A stretch of 10,299 nt of DNA from Bacillota bacterium (GTDB lineage Bacteria; Bacillota; Clostridia; Peptostreptococcales; Thermotaleaceae), in assembly GCA_023623095.1 (NCBI GenBank), contig JAMNXX010000004.1, positions 1 through 10,299 on the forward strand, read 5' to 3'. Positions 2,900-10,299 of this stretch are shown in pieces. The translations under genes were made by a program, and so were the position numbers. The notes beneath the pieces were generated by a model. The model did not search any database. It saw nothing but the letters and a program-made list of their open reading frames with translations, and was not told where the DNA came from. Positions within the stretch are counted from its first letter, which is position 1. The number at the start of each line of letters is the position of its first letter.

Positions 2900-4897
2900 T
2901 TAAACTCTAAAAGAAGAAATGGCTTTAGCCAATCTGTCAGAACTACTTTTTGTTTCATTGGCACCTTTCATTACATGATGTGATTTTTCAGTTATAGCAG
3001 CTATTTTTTCAACGATATTCCCTACCCCAGTAGCGCCTTCATTGGTTGCAGCAGTTACTTCACCGATTGCTTGTGCCATATTCTGTATAGAATTCAACAG
3101 TTCCTCTGCTGTAGTGCTAAAATCTGTTATTAAATCACCAATATTATTAATATCATCTGTATATTGTTTTGTCGTTTCCAACATGATGCCATAATCTTTA
3201 TCTACATCATTGGCCATAAAGTTTAAAAGGTCGTTGGAGTTTTTTGCTAAATTATCAACAGAAGATACGACTACTTGCGTGATGTTTTGTATTTCTGTTG
3301 CTGTGTTTTTTGAGTCTTCTGCCAGCTTTCTGATTTCATCGGCTACGACGGCAAATCCTCTTCCGGCTTCTCCAGCTCTTGCAGCCTCAATAGCCGCATT
3401 AAGGGCAAGCAAGTTTGTCTGGGAAGTGATTTGAAGTATGCTTTCTGTTAGAGAATTGATTTTTTCTACGGCTTTTGATTCAGCCAGAGCATCTTCTAAC
3501 TTATTTTTTACCTCGTTAAATGTATGGAGTGCATTTTGTTGAGTTGTCAAGAAATTTGTTCTCATTTGTTCCGCACGCGTGCTGATATCCTTTGCAGCAA
3601 GAGCTCCTTCCTGGGCTTTGGAAGCCATATTTTCGACAGCTTTTTTTATCTCTTCAGAGGAGGCGTTCATTTCTTCTGCAGAAGCAGATGTTTCTTCCAT
3701 ACCTACGGATAACTCCTCCGTTGTGGCGGAGATATCCTCAATATTGGCGTTGAGCTCTCCCATATATATTTCTGCTTCTTCAACAGAATTGTTCATTTTG
3801 GCGGATTCGGTTTTTACATTTTCTATGATATCTCGCATACTGTTCTGCATGATGTTTAAGGATCGGATGAGCAGCCCTGTCTCATCATTTGATTTGGCCA
3901 ATTTTTCATCAACAGTCGGTGTCAAATCACCGGTAGAAAGGACTTCTAGATGCTTTGCTGCAGCTTTGACTGGCTTGCTGATCGATGAGGCGATCCAATA
4001 GCCGATAAAAAGTGCAAGCAAGAGAAAGGATATGGTGACTATTGCTATATTTCTTTTTAGTATAGTCAGGCCTTCCAATACTTCTGCTTTGGGTGCAGCG
4101 ACTGCAAGGGACCACGAAGTTCCTTCTATTGGTGCGTAGCCCAAATATTTTACTTCCCCTTTATATTGGTATTCTCCTGCACCGGTTTCTCTTGCTACCA
4201 TTGGTATATGAAGATCTGCAAAAGATTGTAAAGCAGGATCATCTTTCAGATCATTAAAAATATTATTTTGTTTGAATACCAGTTCCCTGTTATCATGAGC
4301 AATATTACAATAATTTTCATCGATTGCAAATGCGGCACCGGACTTGCCAAACTTGATCGTTTTAGTGATATCGCTCAATGTATATCCATCTGCAACTGCG
4401 ATTAAAGCACCTATTATATTGGAATCTTTCTTAACCGGTATAGCAAGGAATGTTTCAAGGGTTTTACCATCTTCATTGACCATAGGTGAGGTTATGATTC
4501 TATTGCCTTCGATTGCTTTTTTAAAGTAATAGGTATCACTGATATTGGCAGTAGTACCGTCATTAAAAATCGCATTTCCATCGATATCTGAAAACCCCAT
4601 TCTAAAGTACCCTACATTGGCAGTTTCTTTATCCAACATCAGTTTTAGCTTTTCCCATGAAGCATCATCACCGGTAAATTCATTATTTTCTGCGATGGTC
4701 TCCATAACATTAAAGCGGCCATTGATTCGATATGCTACAGAATCTGCTGCTTGTGTAGCCAATTGTGGCAGGGTTTCGTTTACTTTTTCGATCAGCGCTT
4801 TCGATGAAAAATGATAAGATGTAAATCCAAAACCACCGCATACGATTAATAGAAGCAAAAACAGGATTATCATAATTTTTGTTTTTAAACTTTTCAA
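2900..4897 (-). CDS. Methyl-accepting chemotaxis protein with extracytoplasmic Cache sensor
   Basis: About 665 residues; an inner-membrane chemoreceptor that would signal through CheW and CheA to the flagellar motor. Order of parts: TM1 at about 8-28 ([19 protein letters not shown]); an extracytoplasmic region of about 255 residues with Cache-like stretches ([43 protein letters not shown]); TM2 at about 284-306; HAMP at about 307-360 (starting SKPVK); then a long coiled-coil signalling domain. Its hairpin tip [19 protein letters not shown] begins near G509, the most conserved part of all receptors. The start taken is TTG 4897, because GGGGGA stands 6 bases before it. Frames opening at ATG 4912 or 4996 add a hydrophobic leader with no ribosome site. 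The gene stands alone between a shared terminator and the leuA leader. The ligand is unknown: I do not see the RxxW-type amino-acid-binding signature of some dCache sensors. Confidence 0.92.
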
Positions 4898-4903
4898 AAT
4901 AAT

Positions 4904-4909
4904 TCCCCC
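4904..4909 (-). promoter_or_regulatory. Ribosome binding site deciding a TTG start for the chemoreceptor
   Basis: GGGGGA on the minus strand, with ATTATT before TTG 4897. The start places the positively charged KSLKTK directly before TM1, as expected for a receptor N-terminus. Confidence 0.7.
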
Positions 4910-4953
4910 ATTCATAAAAGTGATAAATAAAATATATAAAAAAGTGACAAAAT

Positions 4954-4984
4954 ATGATAAATTCATACATTTCCATTTTATCAT
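4954..4984. repeat. Inverted repeat upstream of the chemoreceptor gene
   Basis: ATGATAAA (4954-4961) and TTTATCAT (4977-4984) form 8-bp arms around a 15-base spacer, in the 5' region of the minus-strand receptor gene. It could be an operator or a 5' UTR hairpin. In such AT-rich DNA it may also be chance. I could not place a convincing sigma-A or sigma-D promoter for the receptor in 4898-5076. Confidence 0.3.
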
Positions 4985-5076
4985 TATTTTTCCCATAATG
5001 GAATATCATGGTTAAATTTACATTTGATGACGCAAATAGAATCCTGATTTTAATGAAAAAATTTTCAGAAAAACTA

Positions 5077-5105
5077 TTGACAGTTTTATAAAAGCATGAT
5101 AGGAT
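5077..5105 (+). promoter_or_regulatory. Sigma-A promoter of the leuA T-box transcript
   Basis: A perfect -35 TTGACA (5077-5082), a 17-base spacer and -10 TAGGAT (5100-5105, four of six). The -35, the whole spacer and the first two bases of the -10 are identical in the promoter before cimA. Transcription should start near 5112, giving a leader of about 400 bases before leuA. Confidence 0.8.
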
Positions 5106-5133
5106 ACATTTCAACATTAAAATTTCAGTAAGT

Positions 5134-5400
5134 AGAAAGCGATGAAGGAGCAAAACATTTTACGAGGCAGTCTCAGAGAGTCGGTGGATGCTGCGAACCG
5201 ATACTGCAGTAAAATGGAACTCTCTCCTAAGCGGTTTCTCTGAAAGGAAAAGTAGGAGATAAACGGTAAGCCCCGTTATAGGCTAGGGTTTGATGGAACC
5301 TGGAAAGAGCGGCTCTTGCTATTTGTAGAGCAATTAGGGTGGTACCGCGGGAAAATAGACCTCGCCCCTGAATATAGATATTCATGGGCGGGGTTTTTTT
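5134..5400 (+). promoter_or_regulatory. T-box leader, leucine specifier (CTC), controlling leuA
   Basis: A tRNA-sensing riboswitch: uncharged tRNA pairs with the specifier and the T-box bulge, stabilising an antiterminator. Parts seen, in order. The Stem I base is AGAAA/TTTCT (5134-5138 with 5235-5239), with a GATGA K-turn strand at 5141-5145. AGGAG pairs with CTCCT (5146-5150, 5224-5228), and above the loop CATTTTAC pairs with GTAAAATG (5156-5163, 5209-5216). The specifier loop 3' strand is GAACTCT (5217-5223), with CTC at 5220-5222, a Leu codon. A Stem IIA/B pseudoknot has AACGG/CCGTT (5262-5266, 5273-5277) and AGCC/GGCT (5269-5272, 5281-5284). The T-box AGGGTGGTACCGCG is at 5336-5349, with TGGT (5340-5343) fitting a tRNA ending in A-CCA. 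The terminator follows. Structure is paired by eye. The Leu reading agrees with the downstream gene. Confidence 0.95.
5360..5400 (+). terminator. T-box-controlled intrinsic terminator before leuA
   Basis: CCTCGCCCCTGAATAT pairs with ATATTCATGGGCGGGG with one mismatch, then seven T (5394-5400). The 5' arm follows the T-box sequence, so antiterminator and terminator are mutually exclusive. Confidence 0.9.
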
Positions 5401-5416
5401 ATTGTTTAGGAAATCG

Positions 5417-5453
5417 ATCTGTCAATCGGTTTGGCAGATTTAACATGAATCTG
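5417..5453 (+). other. Competing short hairpins between the T-box terminator and leuA
   Basis: CAGAT(T) at 5435-5440 can pair either backwards with ATCTG (5417-5421) or forwards with AATCTG (5448-5453). The two pairings exclude each other. The segment has no counterpart in the cimA leader. Stems are only 5-6 bp, so a real switch is doubtful. Confidence 0.25.
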
Positions 5454-5471
5454 ATTGTGCTAAATATTTAA
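5445..5471 (+). CDS. Possible eight-residue leader peptide rich in branched-chain residues
   Basis: ATG at 5445 opens a mini-frame reading MNLIVLNI and stops at TAA 5469-5471. Five of its eight residues are Leu, Ile or Val, and it sits 38 bases before leuA. This looks like an amino-acid leader peptide. Against it, there is no good ribosome binding site upstream (only a weak GGCAG), and no terminator hairpin follows it. Its first half lies in the 3' arm of a possible hairpin. It may be chance. Confidence 0.2.
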   Translation: MNLIVLNI

Positions 5472-5509
5472 ACGATTAATCATAGAGAAGGAAAGGAGTT
5501 TTAGGAAGA

Positions 5510-7024
5510 ATGAGCAGGCAAATCAAAATCTTTGACACCACATTGAGAGACGGCGAGCAATCACCGGGGTGCAGTATGAACCTCAGGGAAAAAATACAAA
5601 TGGCAAAACAACTAGAAAATTTAAATGTTGACGTGATTGAGGCAGGATTTGCAGCTGCATCTCCGGGGGATTTTCAATCGGTAAGGGAAATCGCAAAGAT
5701 TATTAAAAAGTCTACAGTTGCAAGCTTGGCACGGACACGAGAGGATGATATTGACAAGGCTTGGGAAGCAGTCAAATATGCAGCAAAACCAAGGATTCAT
5801 ACTTTTATTGCTACATCGGATATTCATATGAAATATAAATTAAAAATGAAGCCTGAAGAAGTATTGAAGCAGGCTGTAGAAATGGTTCGATATGCAAAAT
5901 CCTATTGCGATGATATTGAATTTTCAGCAGAGGATGCCACGAGGAGCGATCCGGATTTTCTCGTTGAAATATTCGAGAAAGTGATCGATGCAGGGGCAAC
6001 GGTGATCAATGTGCCGGATACGGTTGGATATACGACACCGGATGAATTTTATAATCTCATCCAGACGATTCAAAAGAGAGTGAAAAATATTCATCGGGCG
6101 GAAATTTCCGTTCATTGTCATAATGATTTGGGGTTAGCTGTGGCAAATACATTAGCAGCAGCCCGTGCAGGAGCAACCCAATTGGAATGTACGATCAATG
6201 GAATCGGAGAACGGGCTGGAAATGCAGCTTTAGAAGAGATCGTCATGGCACTCCGGACCAGAAAAGATTTTTTCGATCTGCAGTGTGATATCGAGACGAC
6301 GCAAATTATGCGCGCAAGCAGATTGTTGTCGCAGATTACAGGAGTTCAAGTACAGCCGAATAAAGCGATTGTCGGTGCCAATGCATTCGCCCATGAATCG
6401 GGAATCCATCAACATGGTGTTCTCAATGAAAGGAGCACCTACGAGATTATGACTCCTGAGTCTGTAGGGCTTTCGCAAAATAAGATGGTTCTCGGAAAAC
6501 ATTCGGGACGCCATGCTTTTGAGGAAAGAGTGAAAATGCTTGGATATCAATTGTCTAAAGAAGAATTGAACAAAGCATTCCAAGAATTTAAGCAGCTGGC
6601 AGATAAAAAGAAAAATGTATACAATCGGGATATTGAAGCGATCGTATCGAAGGGCTCGATAGAAGTCCCGAAAGTTTATGAGCTGAAACGATTTATTATC
6701 AATACCGGCAATACCATTACATCGACTGCGACGATCATTTTGAAGGTGCAGGATCAAGAGATTGAAGAAGTGTCAGCAGGAGAAGGACCCATCGATGCAG
6801 CCTTTAAAGCCATCGAAAAAATTGTAGCATTGGATACCAGTCTGGAGGATTATGCACTGCATTCTGTTACGGAAGGAAAAGACGCCCAGGGGGATGCTAT
6901 CGTTAAATTGAAAAAAGATGAAAAAATATATGTTGGAAGGGGATTGAGCACCGACATCGTAGAATCTAGTATCCATGCTTATTTAGATGCGGTGAATAAA
7001 ATTTTGTTTGAAGCAGAAGAATAA
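5510..7024 (+). CDS. leuA: 2-isopropylmalate synthase
   Basis: 504 residues, the usual length for bacterial LeuA. It condenses acetyl-CoA with 2-oxoisovalerate to give 2-isopropylmalate, the committed step of leucine synthesis, in the cytoplasm. The N-terminal TIM barrel opens with FDTTLRDGEQSPG, where R13 is the catalytic arginine and D14 a metal ligand by family knowledge. The other metal ligands are visible as H202 and H204 (HCHND) and N238 (GERAGNAALEE). The linker signature NAFAHESGIHQHGV is at about 291-304. Residues from about 385 on match the LeuA regulatory (leucine feedback) domain. ATG 5510 is preceded by AAAGGAG at 11 bases and AGGA at 3, neither ideal. Its leader carries a Leu codon in the T-box specifier loop, which argues against homocitrate or citramalate synthase. 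No clear terminator follows in 7025-7093, so some transcripts may run on into the cimA leader. Confidence 0.95.
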   Translation: MSRQIKIFDTTLRDGEQSPGCSMNLREKIQMAKQLENLNVDVIEAGFAAASPGDFQSVREIAKIIKKSTVASLARTREDDIDKAWEAVKYAAKPRIHTFIATSDIHMKYKLKMKPEEVLKQAVEMVRYAKSYCDDIEFSAEDATRSDPDFLVEIFEKVIDAGATVINVPDTVGYTTPDEFYNLIQTIQKRVKNIHRAEISVHCHNDLGLAVANTLAAARAGATQLECTINGIGERAGNAALEEIVMALRTRKDFFDLQCDIETTQIMRASRLLSQITGVQVQPNKAIVGANAFAHESGIHQHGVLNERSTYEIMTPESVGLSQNKMVLGKHSGRHAFEERVKMLGYQLSKEELNKAFQEFKQLADKKKNVYNRDIEAIVSKGSIEVPKVYELKRFIINTGNTITSTATIILKVQDQEIEEVSAGEGPIDAAFKAIEKIVALDTSLEDYALHSVTEGKDAQGDAIVKLKKDEKIYVGRGLSTDIVESSIHAYLDAVNKILFEAEE

Positions 7025-7094
7025 ATTTTGAAAAAACTTTCATTTGATCTTTAAAAAATTTTTCTTTTTATATAAAATGTATTTGGAAAAATGA

Positions 7095-7123
7095 TTGACA
7101 GTTTTATAAAAGCATGATAAAAT
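7095..7123 (+). promoter_or_regulatory. Sigma-A promoter of the cimA-leuC transcript
   Basis: TTGACA (7095-7100), a 17-base spacer and TAAAAT (7118-7123, five of six). It is identical to the leuA promoter from one base before the -35 through the spacer and into the -10. The better -10 suggests it is somewhat stronger. Start of transcription is expected near 7130. Confidence 0.85.
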
Positions 7124-7149
7124 ACGTTTCAATATTAAAATTTTAATTT

Positions 7150-7417
7150 AAAATGCGATGAAAGAGACATGCATTTTTCAGAAGCAGCTTCAGAGAGTCG
7201 GTGTTTGGTGCGAACCGACGCTGTGGAAAAATGTGTATCACTCTTGAGCAGTCTCTCTGAAATGGAAGTAAGAGAGTAACGGTAAGCCCCGTTACAGGCT
7301 AGGGTTTGATGGAACCTGGAAAGAGTGGCTCCTGCTGTTTGCAGAGCAATTAGGGTGGTACCGCGGGAAAGCAGACCTCGCCCCTGAATTGGAATATTCA
7401 TGGGCGGGGTTTTTTTA
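7150..7417 (+). promoter_or_regulatory. T-box leader, isoleucine specifier (ATC), controlling cimA
   Basis: A near-copy of the leuA leader with the same architecture. GATGA is at 7157-7161. AAGAG pairs with CTCTT (7162-7166, 7241-7245), and CATTTTTC pairs with GAAAAATG (7172-7179, 7226-7233). The specifier loop 3' strand is the seven-base TGTATCA (7234-7240). The codon at the position of CTC in the first leader is ATC (7237-7239), an Ile codon. The pseudoknot is AACGG/CCGTT (7278-7282, 7289-7293) with AGCC/GGCT (7285-7288, 7297-7300). The T-box AGGGTGGTACCGCG is at 7352-7365, with TGGT at 7356-7359. The terminator follows. The Ile reading matches citramalate synthase, which feeds isoleucine synthesis. 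The pairings were found by eye. Confidence 0.95.
7376..7417 (+). terminator. T-box-controlled intrinsic terminator before cimA
   Basis: CCTCGCCCCTGAAT pairs across a short loop with ATTCATGGGCGGGG, then seven T (7410-7416). It is almost the same as the terminator before leuA; only the loop differs. Confidence 0.9.
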
Positions 7418-7468
7418 TTGATTTTTTAAATAAAATTTCAAAGTAATTCCTATAGGAGGAGAGAAAGA

Positions 7469-9115
7469 ATGGTTCATGAGGTCGTGATCTTTGATTCTAC
7501 ACTTCGAGACGGAGCCCAGACGAGAGGCGTTTCTTTTTCGGTAGATGATAAGATCAAAATTGTGAAAGCTCTGGATGTACTGGGAATTCAATATATTGAA
7601 GCAGGAAATCCCGGATCAAACATAAAAGATATAGAGTTTTTCAAAAGAGCGAAGAAACTTGAGTTAAAACATGCAAAGTTGACAGCTTTTGGGAGCACGA
7701 GAAGAAAAGATATTACCGTAGAAGAAGATAAGAATGTACAAAGTTTATTATCTGCAAACACATCAGCCGTTGCAATTTTTGGGAAGTCTTGGGATTTTCA
7801 TGTGACGGATATCATCAGAACTACATTGGAAGAAAATCTAAATATGATTCGAGATACCATCCGCTTTTTCAAAGAAAAACAAAAAGAAGTGATTTTTGAT
7901 GCAGAGCACTTTTTTGATGGATATAAAGCCAATCCCCTTTATGCAATGGAGACCCTCCGAGTTGCTGCAGAGGCAGGCGCGGATTGTTTGGTTTTATGTG
8001 ATACGAACGGAGGATCCTTTCCGGATGAAGTATATGAGGTGACGAAGAAGGTGGTTGAAACCTTTTCGACGGATGTGGGAATTCACTGCCACAATGACTG
8101 CGGTATGGCGGTTGCCAATACGATGATGGCAGTGAAAGCAGGTGCTGTGCATGTTCAAGGAACCTATATCGGATTAGGGGAAAGGTGCGGCAATGCGAAT
8201 CTATCGACATTAATTCCAAATCTGCAGATTAAAAAGAATATTCGGTGCATCCCGGAAGAACAGCTATCTCAACTGACTGCTACTGCTCGATACATCGCAG
8301 AGGTGACCAATATTTCTTTAGATGCAGCATCTCCTTATGTAGGAAATAACGCATTTGCACATAAGGGGGGGATGCATGTCGATGGTGTCAATAAAGCCAG
8401 CCGTTCTTTTGAGCATATTCCTCCTCATTTGGTAGGAAACAGCAGGAAGATTTTGATGTCGGAAGTTTCAGGGAAGAATACGCTTTTATCAAAGATCCAA
8501 AAAATAGAACCCAAATTGACAAAAGAATCTCCGCAAACGCAGGAAATTTTAGATAAATTAAAATTACTGGAGCACAAAGGATATCAATTTGAAGGAGCAG
8601 AAAGTTCTTTTGAACTGCTCATTCGAAAACATCTCGGAAAGTATCAGCCATTCTTTGAGCTGAATTATTATAAGGTTATTGAGGAAGGACCGACCGTTAA
8701 CGGAGAATATAGTTCTTCTGCGTTAATCAAGGTAAGGGTCAATGACAAGGAAGAAATGACTGCCACAGAAGGAAAAGGACCGGTACATGCGCTGGATTTG
8801 GCGCTCCGAAAAGCCTTGGAAGTATTTTATCCTATCCTTAAAACGGTATATTTAACTGATTATAAGGTAAGAGTGCTTGATGCAAAAAGTACGACGGCAG
8901 CAAAGGTAAGGGTTTTGATCGAGTCTACAGATGGAAAAGAATCTTGGACGACGGTGGGCGTATCCACGAATATTATTGAAGCCAGTGCGATTGCGCTTGT
9001 AGACTCTATTGAATACAAATTGATAAAAGAGCTGGAAAAAAACGAAAAAGGAGGAGCTTATCATGGGAATGACAATGACACAAAAAATACTAGCGGCGCA
9101 TGCCGGGTTGGATAA
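7469..9115 (+). CDS. cimA: (R)-citramalate synthase
   Basis: 548 residues. It joins acetyl-CoA and pyruvate to (R)-citramalate, which LeuCD and LeuB turn into 2-oxobutyrate for isoleucine synthesis without threonine. It is a LeuA-superfamily enzyme. [13 protein letters not shown] carries R13 and D14; HCHND gives H206 and H208; [12 protein letters not shown] gives N242; [14 protein letters not shown] is at about 293-306. The [10 protein letters not shown] and WDFHV stretches and the overall length fit the citramalate synthase branch rather than LeuA. The C-terminal LeuA-type regulatory domain spans about 410-530. AGGAGG at 7454-7459 sits 9 bases before ATG 7469. The last 18 or so residues (from about the GGAYHGND stretch) overlap leuC and look unconserved. 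The Ile codon in the leader specifier independently supports the function. Confidence 0.93.
9049..9054 (+). promoter_or_regulatory. Ribosome binding site of leuC inside the cimA coding region
   Basis: AGGAGG ends 8 bases before ATG 9063. It selects that start over the in-frame ATGs at 9069 and 9075, and shows that leuC initiates before cimA ends. Confidence 0.8.
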
Positions 9116-10299
9116 AGTAAAAGCAGGACAATTTATTGAAGCAAATTTGGATATGGTATTGGGAAATGACGTTACAACACCTGTTGCAATCAAAGAGTTT
9201 CAGAAAATGGGTGCCAAAAAAGTATTCGATAAGAAAAAGATCGCGATCGTTCCTGATCATTTTACGCCGAATAAAGATATTAAGGCAGCAGAACAGTGTA
9301 AAGCCATCCGCGAATTTGCTCAGGAGATGGAAATCGAAAATTATTTTGAAATTGGGGAGATGGGAATTGAGCATGCACTGCTTCCTGAAAAAGGTTTGGT
9401 TGTAGCCGGGGATGTTGTCATCGGCGCAGACTCCCATACTTGCACCTACGGCGCTTTGGGCGCATTTTCAACAGGAATCGGAAGCACGGATATGGCTGCA
9501 GGGATGGCTACAGGGAAATGCTGGTTTAAAGTGCCGAGTGCGATTCAATTTTCACTGAAAGGGAAATTAAATAAATGGGTTAGCGGAAAAGATGTCATCC
9601 TGCACATTATCGGGATGATCGGCGTAGATGGCGCTTTATATCAATCGATGGAGTTTGTGGGAGAAGGCATCAAAAATTTATCCATGGATGATCGTTTCTC
9701 AATCGCCAATATGGCCATCGAAGCCGGAGGGAAAAATGGGATCTTTTTGGTAGATGAAAAGACGATCGAATATATCAAAGCCCATTCTACAAAACCTTAT
9801 ACGGTCTATGAGCCGGATGAAGATGCGGAATATGAAAAAAGATATGAAATTGATTTAAGCGAGATTCGACCTACCGTTGCTTTCCCTCATCTTCCTGAAA
9901 ATACCCGCACCATTGATGAAGTAGGAGATATCAAAATCGATCAGGTCGTCATTGGATCTTGTACCAATGGGCGTATCGAGGATTTGAGGACAGCGGCAGC
10001 GATCCTAAAAGATAAGAAAGTAGCAAAAGGCGTACGCACGATTATTTTCCCTGCAACACAAAAAATTTATCTTCAAGCCCTTCAGGAAGGCCTTATCGAA
10101 ACATTTATTAAAGCGGGAGCTGCTGTGAGCACACCTACCTGCGGACCTTGTCTGGGTGGACATATGGGGATTTTAGCAAAAGGAGAAAGAGCGGTTGCTA
10201 CAACAAACCGGAATTTCGTCGGCAGGATGGGGCATCCGGAATCAGAAGTATATTTGGCAAGTCCGGCAGTTGCAGCGGCTTCTGCAGTGACTGGGAAAA
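9063..10299 (+). CDS. leuC: 3-isopropylmalate dehydratase large subunit (3' end outside window)
   Basis: 412 codons are present, beginning [22 protein letters not shown]; the frame is still open at the window edge. The protein is the aconitase-fold large subunit that, with LeuD, isomerises 2- to 3-isopropylmalate and also handles citramalate. The three expected [4Fe-4S] ligands are C300 (IGSCTNGR), C360 and C363 ([11 protein letters not shown]). Other signatures are [24 protein letters not shown] (given here in outline, about residues 121-144) and [20 protein letters not shown] near the end. Its size and motifs match the shorter, archaeal-type LeuC of about 420 residues, so only a few codons should be missing. 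It overlaps cimA by 53 bases in a different frame. leuD and leuB are expected next but are outside the window. Confidence 0.95.

Follow-up and report, generated by a model that had tools for sequence, protein, structure and literature searches.

Duplication followed by divergence to a new specificity is one of the four modes of T-box evolution described by Wels et al. in 2008 (PMC2494555), who give as an example the Tyr leader of a tRNA ligase, from which the Phe leader of a transporter arose, and who also cite a single-base change of specificity in tyrS. Duplications and specificity changes of T-boxes are reported again with the database TBDB (PMC7778990), and a survey of 2025 described tandem T-boxes on branched-chain genes in Bacillota (PMC12452182). 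In this study we analyzed a stretch of 10,299 nucleotides (hereafter the window; positions 1 to 10,299 of contig JAMNXX010000004.1, assembly GCA_023623095.1) from a Bacillota bacterium of the family Thermotaleaceae, in which leuA and the following genes cimA and leuC are preceded by two closely related cassettes of promoter and T-box leader. We consider it probable that the promoter and leader of leuA were duplicated with the gene left behind, that the copy was placed between leuA and cimA of an old operon, and that the specifier of the copy was altered from CTC to ATC.

The locus resembles the mode of Wels et al. in that a leader appears to have been copied within the genome and its specifier altered to suit a new gene. 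It differs in that the copy stands behind its source with a single gene in between, at a place where the operon is undivided in many relatives. As in the tandem T-boxes of the 2025 survey, two complete T-boxes lie close together on branched-chain genes; there, however, they stand in series before the same gene, whereas here leuA lies between them and the specifiers differ. Our literature search, with most subscription journals outside its coverage, found no published report of such a Leu/Ile arrangement. The locus is a clean example of an already described kind of T-box change and leaves the knowledge of T-boxes as it was. Its good preservation allows the unit that was copied, the codon that was altered and the genes under control to be identified one by one, and it shows by example how a second input can be added to an operon that had a single shared one.

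Two T-box leaders with Leu and Ile specifiers

The elements of the two cassettes and the genes behind them are the following.

5068-5407 (+): regulatory cassette copy 1, promoter to terminator (DNA match to 7086-7423, 83%)
5077-5105 (+): promoter 1, TTGACA, 17-base spacer, TAGGAT (consensus scan, 10/12; TG before the second hexamer)
5133-5372 (+): T-box leader 1, 5' of leuA (RF00230)
5220-5222 (+): specifier CTC (Leu) (predicted stem I loop; specifier column of other leaders)
5336-5349 (+): T-box sequence AGGGTGGTACCGCG, antiterminator 1 (sequence and RF00230 alignment; bulge TGGT fits a tRNA ending in ACCA)
5361-5400 (+): intrinsic terminator 1 (fold -18.4 kcal/mol, z -4.18, then seven T)
5510-7024 (+): leuA, 2-isopropylmalate synthase, 504 amino acids (NF002086 and TIGR00973 above cut-off)
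7086-7423 (+): regulatory cassette copy 2 (DNA match to 5068-5407, 83%)
7095-7123 (+): promoter 2, TTGACA, 17-base spacer, TAAAAT (consensus scan, 11/12)
7149-7388 (+): T-box leader 2, 5' of cimA and leuC (RF00230)
7237-7239 (+): specifier ATC (Ile) (shared specifier column; unpaired in the fold)
7352-7365 (+): T-box sequence AGGGTGGTACCGCG, antiterminator 2 (sequence and RF00230 alignment)
7377-7416 (+): intrinsic terminator 2 (fold -18.1 kcal/mol, z -3.83, then seven T)
7469-9115 (+): cimA, (R)-citramalate synthase, frame of 548 amino acids (TIGR00977 above cut-off; shares 53 bases with the start of leuC)
9063-10299 (+): leuC, 3-isopropylmalate dehydratase large subunit (TIGR02083 above cut-off; ends at the contig end)

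The covariance model RF00230 covered both leaders over its whole length (1-219), with 133.4 bits (E 3e-30) for leader 1 and 128.5 bits (E 5.6e-29) for leader 2 against an Rfam gathering score of 93. An earlier note, made from the letters of this DNA, had taken both for T-box leaders, and the model agrees with it. The T-box sequence, the antiterminator and the competing intrinsic terminator are present in both leaders, as in transcriptional T-boxes of the Leu and Ile types; in leader 1, but not in leader 2, the antiterminator is also the most favourable fold of its fragment. The terminators rest on the folds listed above, a simple terminator scan having missed both of them. The consensus scan for promoters found 11 promoter-like sites in the region, compared with a mean of 6.4 in shuffled sequences.

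From the -35 box through the terminator, the two cassettes are about 83% identical, the likeness that the earlier note had seen. The global alignment of 5061-5509 with 7077-7468 gave 321 identities in 389 ungapped columns, distributed unevenly: 48/55 in the promoter and start, 72/98 (73.5%) in stem I and 118/129 (91.5%) from the antiterminator through the terminator. A nucleotide search against the genome itself recovered the second copy at 83% identity with an E-value of 1.3e-91, which excludes a chance likeness. Recognisable homology begins just 5' of the -35 box and stops just 3' of the terminator, beyond which the alignment consists largely of gaps. The distances read off the sequence are those given in the earlier note, namely 143 (5077 to 5220) and 142 (7095 to 7237) bases from the -35 box to the specifier, and 116 (5220 to 5336) and 115 (7237 to 7352) bases from the specifier to AGGGTGG.

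The specifiers were compared in an alignment of 47 leaders, 44 of them from relatives, two from the window and one the ilvC-type leader of the own genome. CTC at 5220-5222 and ATC at 7237-7239, which differ by a single base, fall into one column of this alignment, which holds CTC in 28 leaders, ATC in 18 and TCC in one. The two codons named in the earlier note are thus those of the specifier column. In the genetic code, CTC stands for leucine and ATC for isoleucine. Leader 1 most likely senses leucine and leader 2 isoleucine, as far as can be judged from their sequences.

The specifier triplet lies in an internal loop of stem I between conserved helices. In a covariation check on 21 of the 47 leaders, picked by hand, the helices above and below the specifier loop paired in 95.2% and 93.3% of cells, with two-sided changes in 5/8 and 2/5 of their pairs, respectively. 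Over the whole fold, two-sided changes were found in 17/31 pairs, against a mean of 7.8 in shuffled alignments and 2 to 8 in slid versions. The outermost helix of this fold was unsupported, with 35.6% pairing. For leader 1, the predicted fold places the seven bases GAACUCU, with CUC at positions 4-6, on the 3' side of the specifier loop, in agreement with the earlier note. The seven-base loop that it gave for leader 2 did not appear in the minimum-energy fold, where the upper helix is three weak pairs longer and the loop strand is the four-base AUCA, AUC remaining unpaired. Since this fold is no better than those of shuffled sequences (z -0.59), the proposed seven-base loop TGTATCA of leader 2 rests on homology. 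The alignment of the 47 leaders is the firmer evidence for the specifiers.

A purine directly 3' of the specifier is named as conserved (PMC7583486), and it was found in 40 of the 47 leaders, a usual rather than a defining feature. Leader 2 has A at this position; leader 1, with U at 5223, departs from the usual T-box and is one of the seven leaders without the purine. A tRNA-Leu(GAG) with an ACCA end is present in the assembly, and the TGGT bulge fits this tRNA because it ends in ACCA.

The own genome contains 14 T-boxes above the cut-off and two below. Some of the others lie 5' of serS-, proB-, argS-, thrS- and metG-like genes, named by eye from their translations.

Descent of the leaders and of the enzymes

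A tree of the 47 leaders was built after removal of the specifier columns; the 11 other own-genome T-boxes above the cut-off and the two below were left out of it. No T-box above the cut-off was found in five (L086 and L104-L107) of the 41 loci of relatives that were searched. Leaders 1 and 2 grouped as sisters with support of 99/98, which indicates that one leader is a copy of the other. The tree does not show separate acquisitions, the result by which the duplication proposed in the earlier note could have failed. The window thus holds two sister leaders of one genome with different specifiers, each fitting the gene behind it.

Alternative topologies were compared by the approximately unbiased (AU) test, with groups picked after the tree had been seen. 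Grouping leader 1 with the six leuA leaders of G005, G012, G013, G014, G015 and G020, with leader 2 outside, was rejected (p 0.009), and grouping both window leaders with these six was not rejected (p 0.244). A further candidate, common inheritance of leader 2 and the G042 and G067 cimA leaders, was rejected (p 8.4e-16).

Among the 47 leaders, well-supported branches force at least six changes between Leu and Ile specifiers. Three cases in relatives were noted individually. The leader of the ilvC-ilvB-cimA operon at L081:1140-1413 (G014) has CTC, whereas the other four such leaders have ATC, a separate specifier change. The leuA leader at L094:7052-7318 (G002) belongs to the ilvC-type lineage (100/99) and has CTC rather than ATC, the reverse situation, with an Ile-type leader in front of leuA. 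The related leaders L098:1365-1605 and 4798-5088 (G067), which lie in one region and are 73% identical, have CTC before leuC and ATC before cimA.

The enzymes have a different history. LeuA scored 804.6 bits with NF002086 (cut-off 532) and CimA 740.4 bits with TIGR00977 (cut-off 450). The two proteins are 28% identical, far from the 83% of their leaders. A quickly built tree of 59 proteins, each at least 450 amino acids long, placed the 33 LeuA and 26 CimA rows on opposite sides of one branch with support of 99; long-branch warnings concerned a few rows, none of them from the window. The low identity and the single old split indicate that the genes were not copied along with the leaders, and that the divergence of LeuA and CimA long predates the copying. 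The copied unit is the regulatory cassette without a gene.

In the earlier note, the locus was read as the outcome of a tandem duplication that took in both leader and enzyme gene and was followed by a parallel change of amino-acid specificity in RNA and protein, the second gene turning into cimA. The leaders are indeed duplicates whose specifiers differ in step with the gene, and LeuA and CimA have common Pfam domains. The parts of that reading concerning the gene are contradicted, since the enzymes had split long before the leader was copied. The CimA of the window, moreover, is 77-78% identical to the CimA of G005. The protein identity and the 59-protein tree rule out a joint duplication of leader and gene, to which we give next to no credence. 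CimA was an enzyme of the isoleucine pathway before it gained leader 2, because the cimA genes of relatives sit behind leuA, ilvC-ilvB or ilvC, or alone.

Gene order in relatives and direction of copying

The place of insertion was considered from 41 mapped loci of relatives, in which most genes were named by similarity clusters with NCBIfam-named representatives; labels of adjacency and gene content were assigned by hand. In 15 of 25 genomes, the window included and G074 and G045, whose contigs end at cimA, set aside, leuA lies directly 5' of cimA. None of the other 14 genomes has a T-box above the cut-off between the two genes, and 11 of them have one ahead of the leuA-cimA operon, often with ilvN-ilvC first. 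Among the best 80 of 560 named loci, some of which may be from the same species as other mapped relatives, leuA was directly 5' of cimA in 22, and in 21 of these 22 no more than 132 bases separate the two genes, which leaves no room for a T-box. A T-box motif pattern found nothing within 700 bases 5' of cimA in any of the 80, a pattern that misses T-boxes with TGGTAACGCG. Since such T-boxes are common here, the short gaps were relied on instead. The adjacency of leuA and cimA in relatives without an intervening T-box suggests that the leader copy entered an old operon.

It might instead be supposed that cimA once stood behind ilvB and was later brought next to leuA. Contig C100 of the own genome carries an ilvC-type Ile leader followed by an ACT-domain-like gene, ilvC, ilvB and ilvE (named by eye), and no cimA, as would be expected after such a move. 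We set this explanation lower in view of the adjacency in 15 of the 25 genomes.

The specifiers of relatives follow the gene content. Leaders of leuA without cimA have CTC in all 16 cases and leaders of cimA without leuA have ATC in nine of ten, whereas the 12 leaders of operons with both genes divide into seven with CTC and five with ATC. For the two single-gene classes Fisher's test gave p 3.2e-6, a value that overstates the association because the leaders are related.

These counts bear on another explanation, gene conversion, in which the leader of leuA would have overwritten the promoter and the antiterminator half of an Ile T-box that cimA already had, with ATC kept. It would account both for the uneven identity (91.5% from antiterminator to terminator, 73.5% in stem I) and for the ATC usual before cimA. 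The promoter, however, is also common to both cassettes, and no other mapped genome has a T-box above the cut-off between adjacent leuA and cimA. We regard such a conversion as improbable.

As to the direction of copying, the promoters are informative. Apart from each other, the best matches of both are promoters of stand-alone leuA genes of the family, those of G012, G014 and G015, all of which drive CTC leaders. Promoter 2 gave local scores of 55, 54 and 50 with these three, where the 99% point of shuffled sequences was 42; promoter 1 gave 42 with each, where that point was 39. The resemblance of both promoters to leuA promoters of CTC leaders makes a change from Leu to Ile the likelier direction.

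In the opposite direction, an Ile leader before the leuA-cimA pair would be the original and leader 1 a copy turned to CTC. Leader 2 does keep the purine after the specifier and has the better -10 box, and the two window leaders resemble the ATC leaders of ilvN-ilvC-leuA-cimA operons as closely as they resemble leuA leaders (73-75%). The match of both promoters to stand-alone, CTC-type leuA promoters argues against it, although copy 1 exceeds the 99% point of the shuffles barely (42 vs 39). We judge this reverse copying unlikely, if somewhat less so than gene conversion.

Several observations weigh against the proposed copying of a leuA leader into the operon, in addition to the similarity of the ATC leaders just mentioned. 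The leader columns hold no signal as to which copy is the original: the 37 informative differences divide into 15 in agreement with leader 1, the specifier among them, 14 with leader 2 and 8 with neither. Against the remaining leaders, the informative columns split 9 to 8. The position of the pair in the 47-leader tree is without resolution, and a grouping of leader 2 with the ilvC-type leaders, 19.2 lower in log-likelihood, was not rejected at the 5% level (AU p 0.073). An identical tree would be expected from gene conversion between two older leaders. Among relatives from the same family, five have the order T-box-ilvC-ilvB-cimA-leuC with leuA elsewhere; in four of them a T-box lies 5' of the separate leuA, and in G007 none above the cut-off was found there. 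The adjacency of leuA and cimA requires five changes on the CimA tree, in which the place of the window is without resolution. No tRNA-Ile was found around 15 tRNA matches in the assembly, which is 76% complete. Finally, according to a review, exchange of the specifier makes a leader responsive to another tRNA, though always incompletely (PMC7583486), so that the codon change alone may fall short of full control by isoleucine.

Predicted regulation and neighbouring genes

Each leader probably works as a transcriptional T-box of the ordinary kind: uncharged tRNA-Leu(GAG) would read CUC in leader 1 and allow RNA polymerase to continue into leuA, and uncharged tRNA-Ile(GAU) would read AUC in leader 2 and allow it to continue into cimA and leuC. 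Where many relatives have an operon with a single amino-acid input for all its genes, leuA would thereby be controlled by leucine and cimA-leuC, as a separate unit, by isoleucine. A shared leader can sense one amino acid only, whereas two leaders can sense both.

Between leuA and promoter 2 no terminator was found by the scan, which also missed the two known terminators, and folding of 7025-7094 gave only A+T-rich hairpins (z -0.68) and no terminator. Transcripts from promoter 1 therefore probably run on into leader 2. It is conceivable, though we hold it rather doubtful, that the leaders then form two gates in series with a coding gene between them: leuA would need uncharged tRNA-Leu only, while cimA-leuC would need both tRNA-Leu and tRNA-Ile uncharged when transcribed from promoter 1, and tRNA-Ile when transcribed from promoter 2. 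With such a gate, leuC, which is needed for leucine synthesis, would be under isoleucine control. LeuC serves both the leucine and the isoleucine pathways. Its position behind an Ile leader is the oddest consequence of the arrangement, and it burdens leucine synthesis, except if leader 2 is leaky or is passed by transcripts from promoter 1.

Two further observations concern the 5' part of the window. The end of a polyprenyl synthetase gene (2-379) faces a DUF2600 gene on the opposite strand (376-1476). Two adjacent, overlapping genes (1556-2191 and 2172-2753) both encode family-4 uracil-DNA glycosylases, each above the TIGR00758 cut-off.

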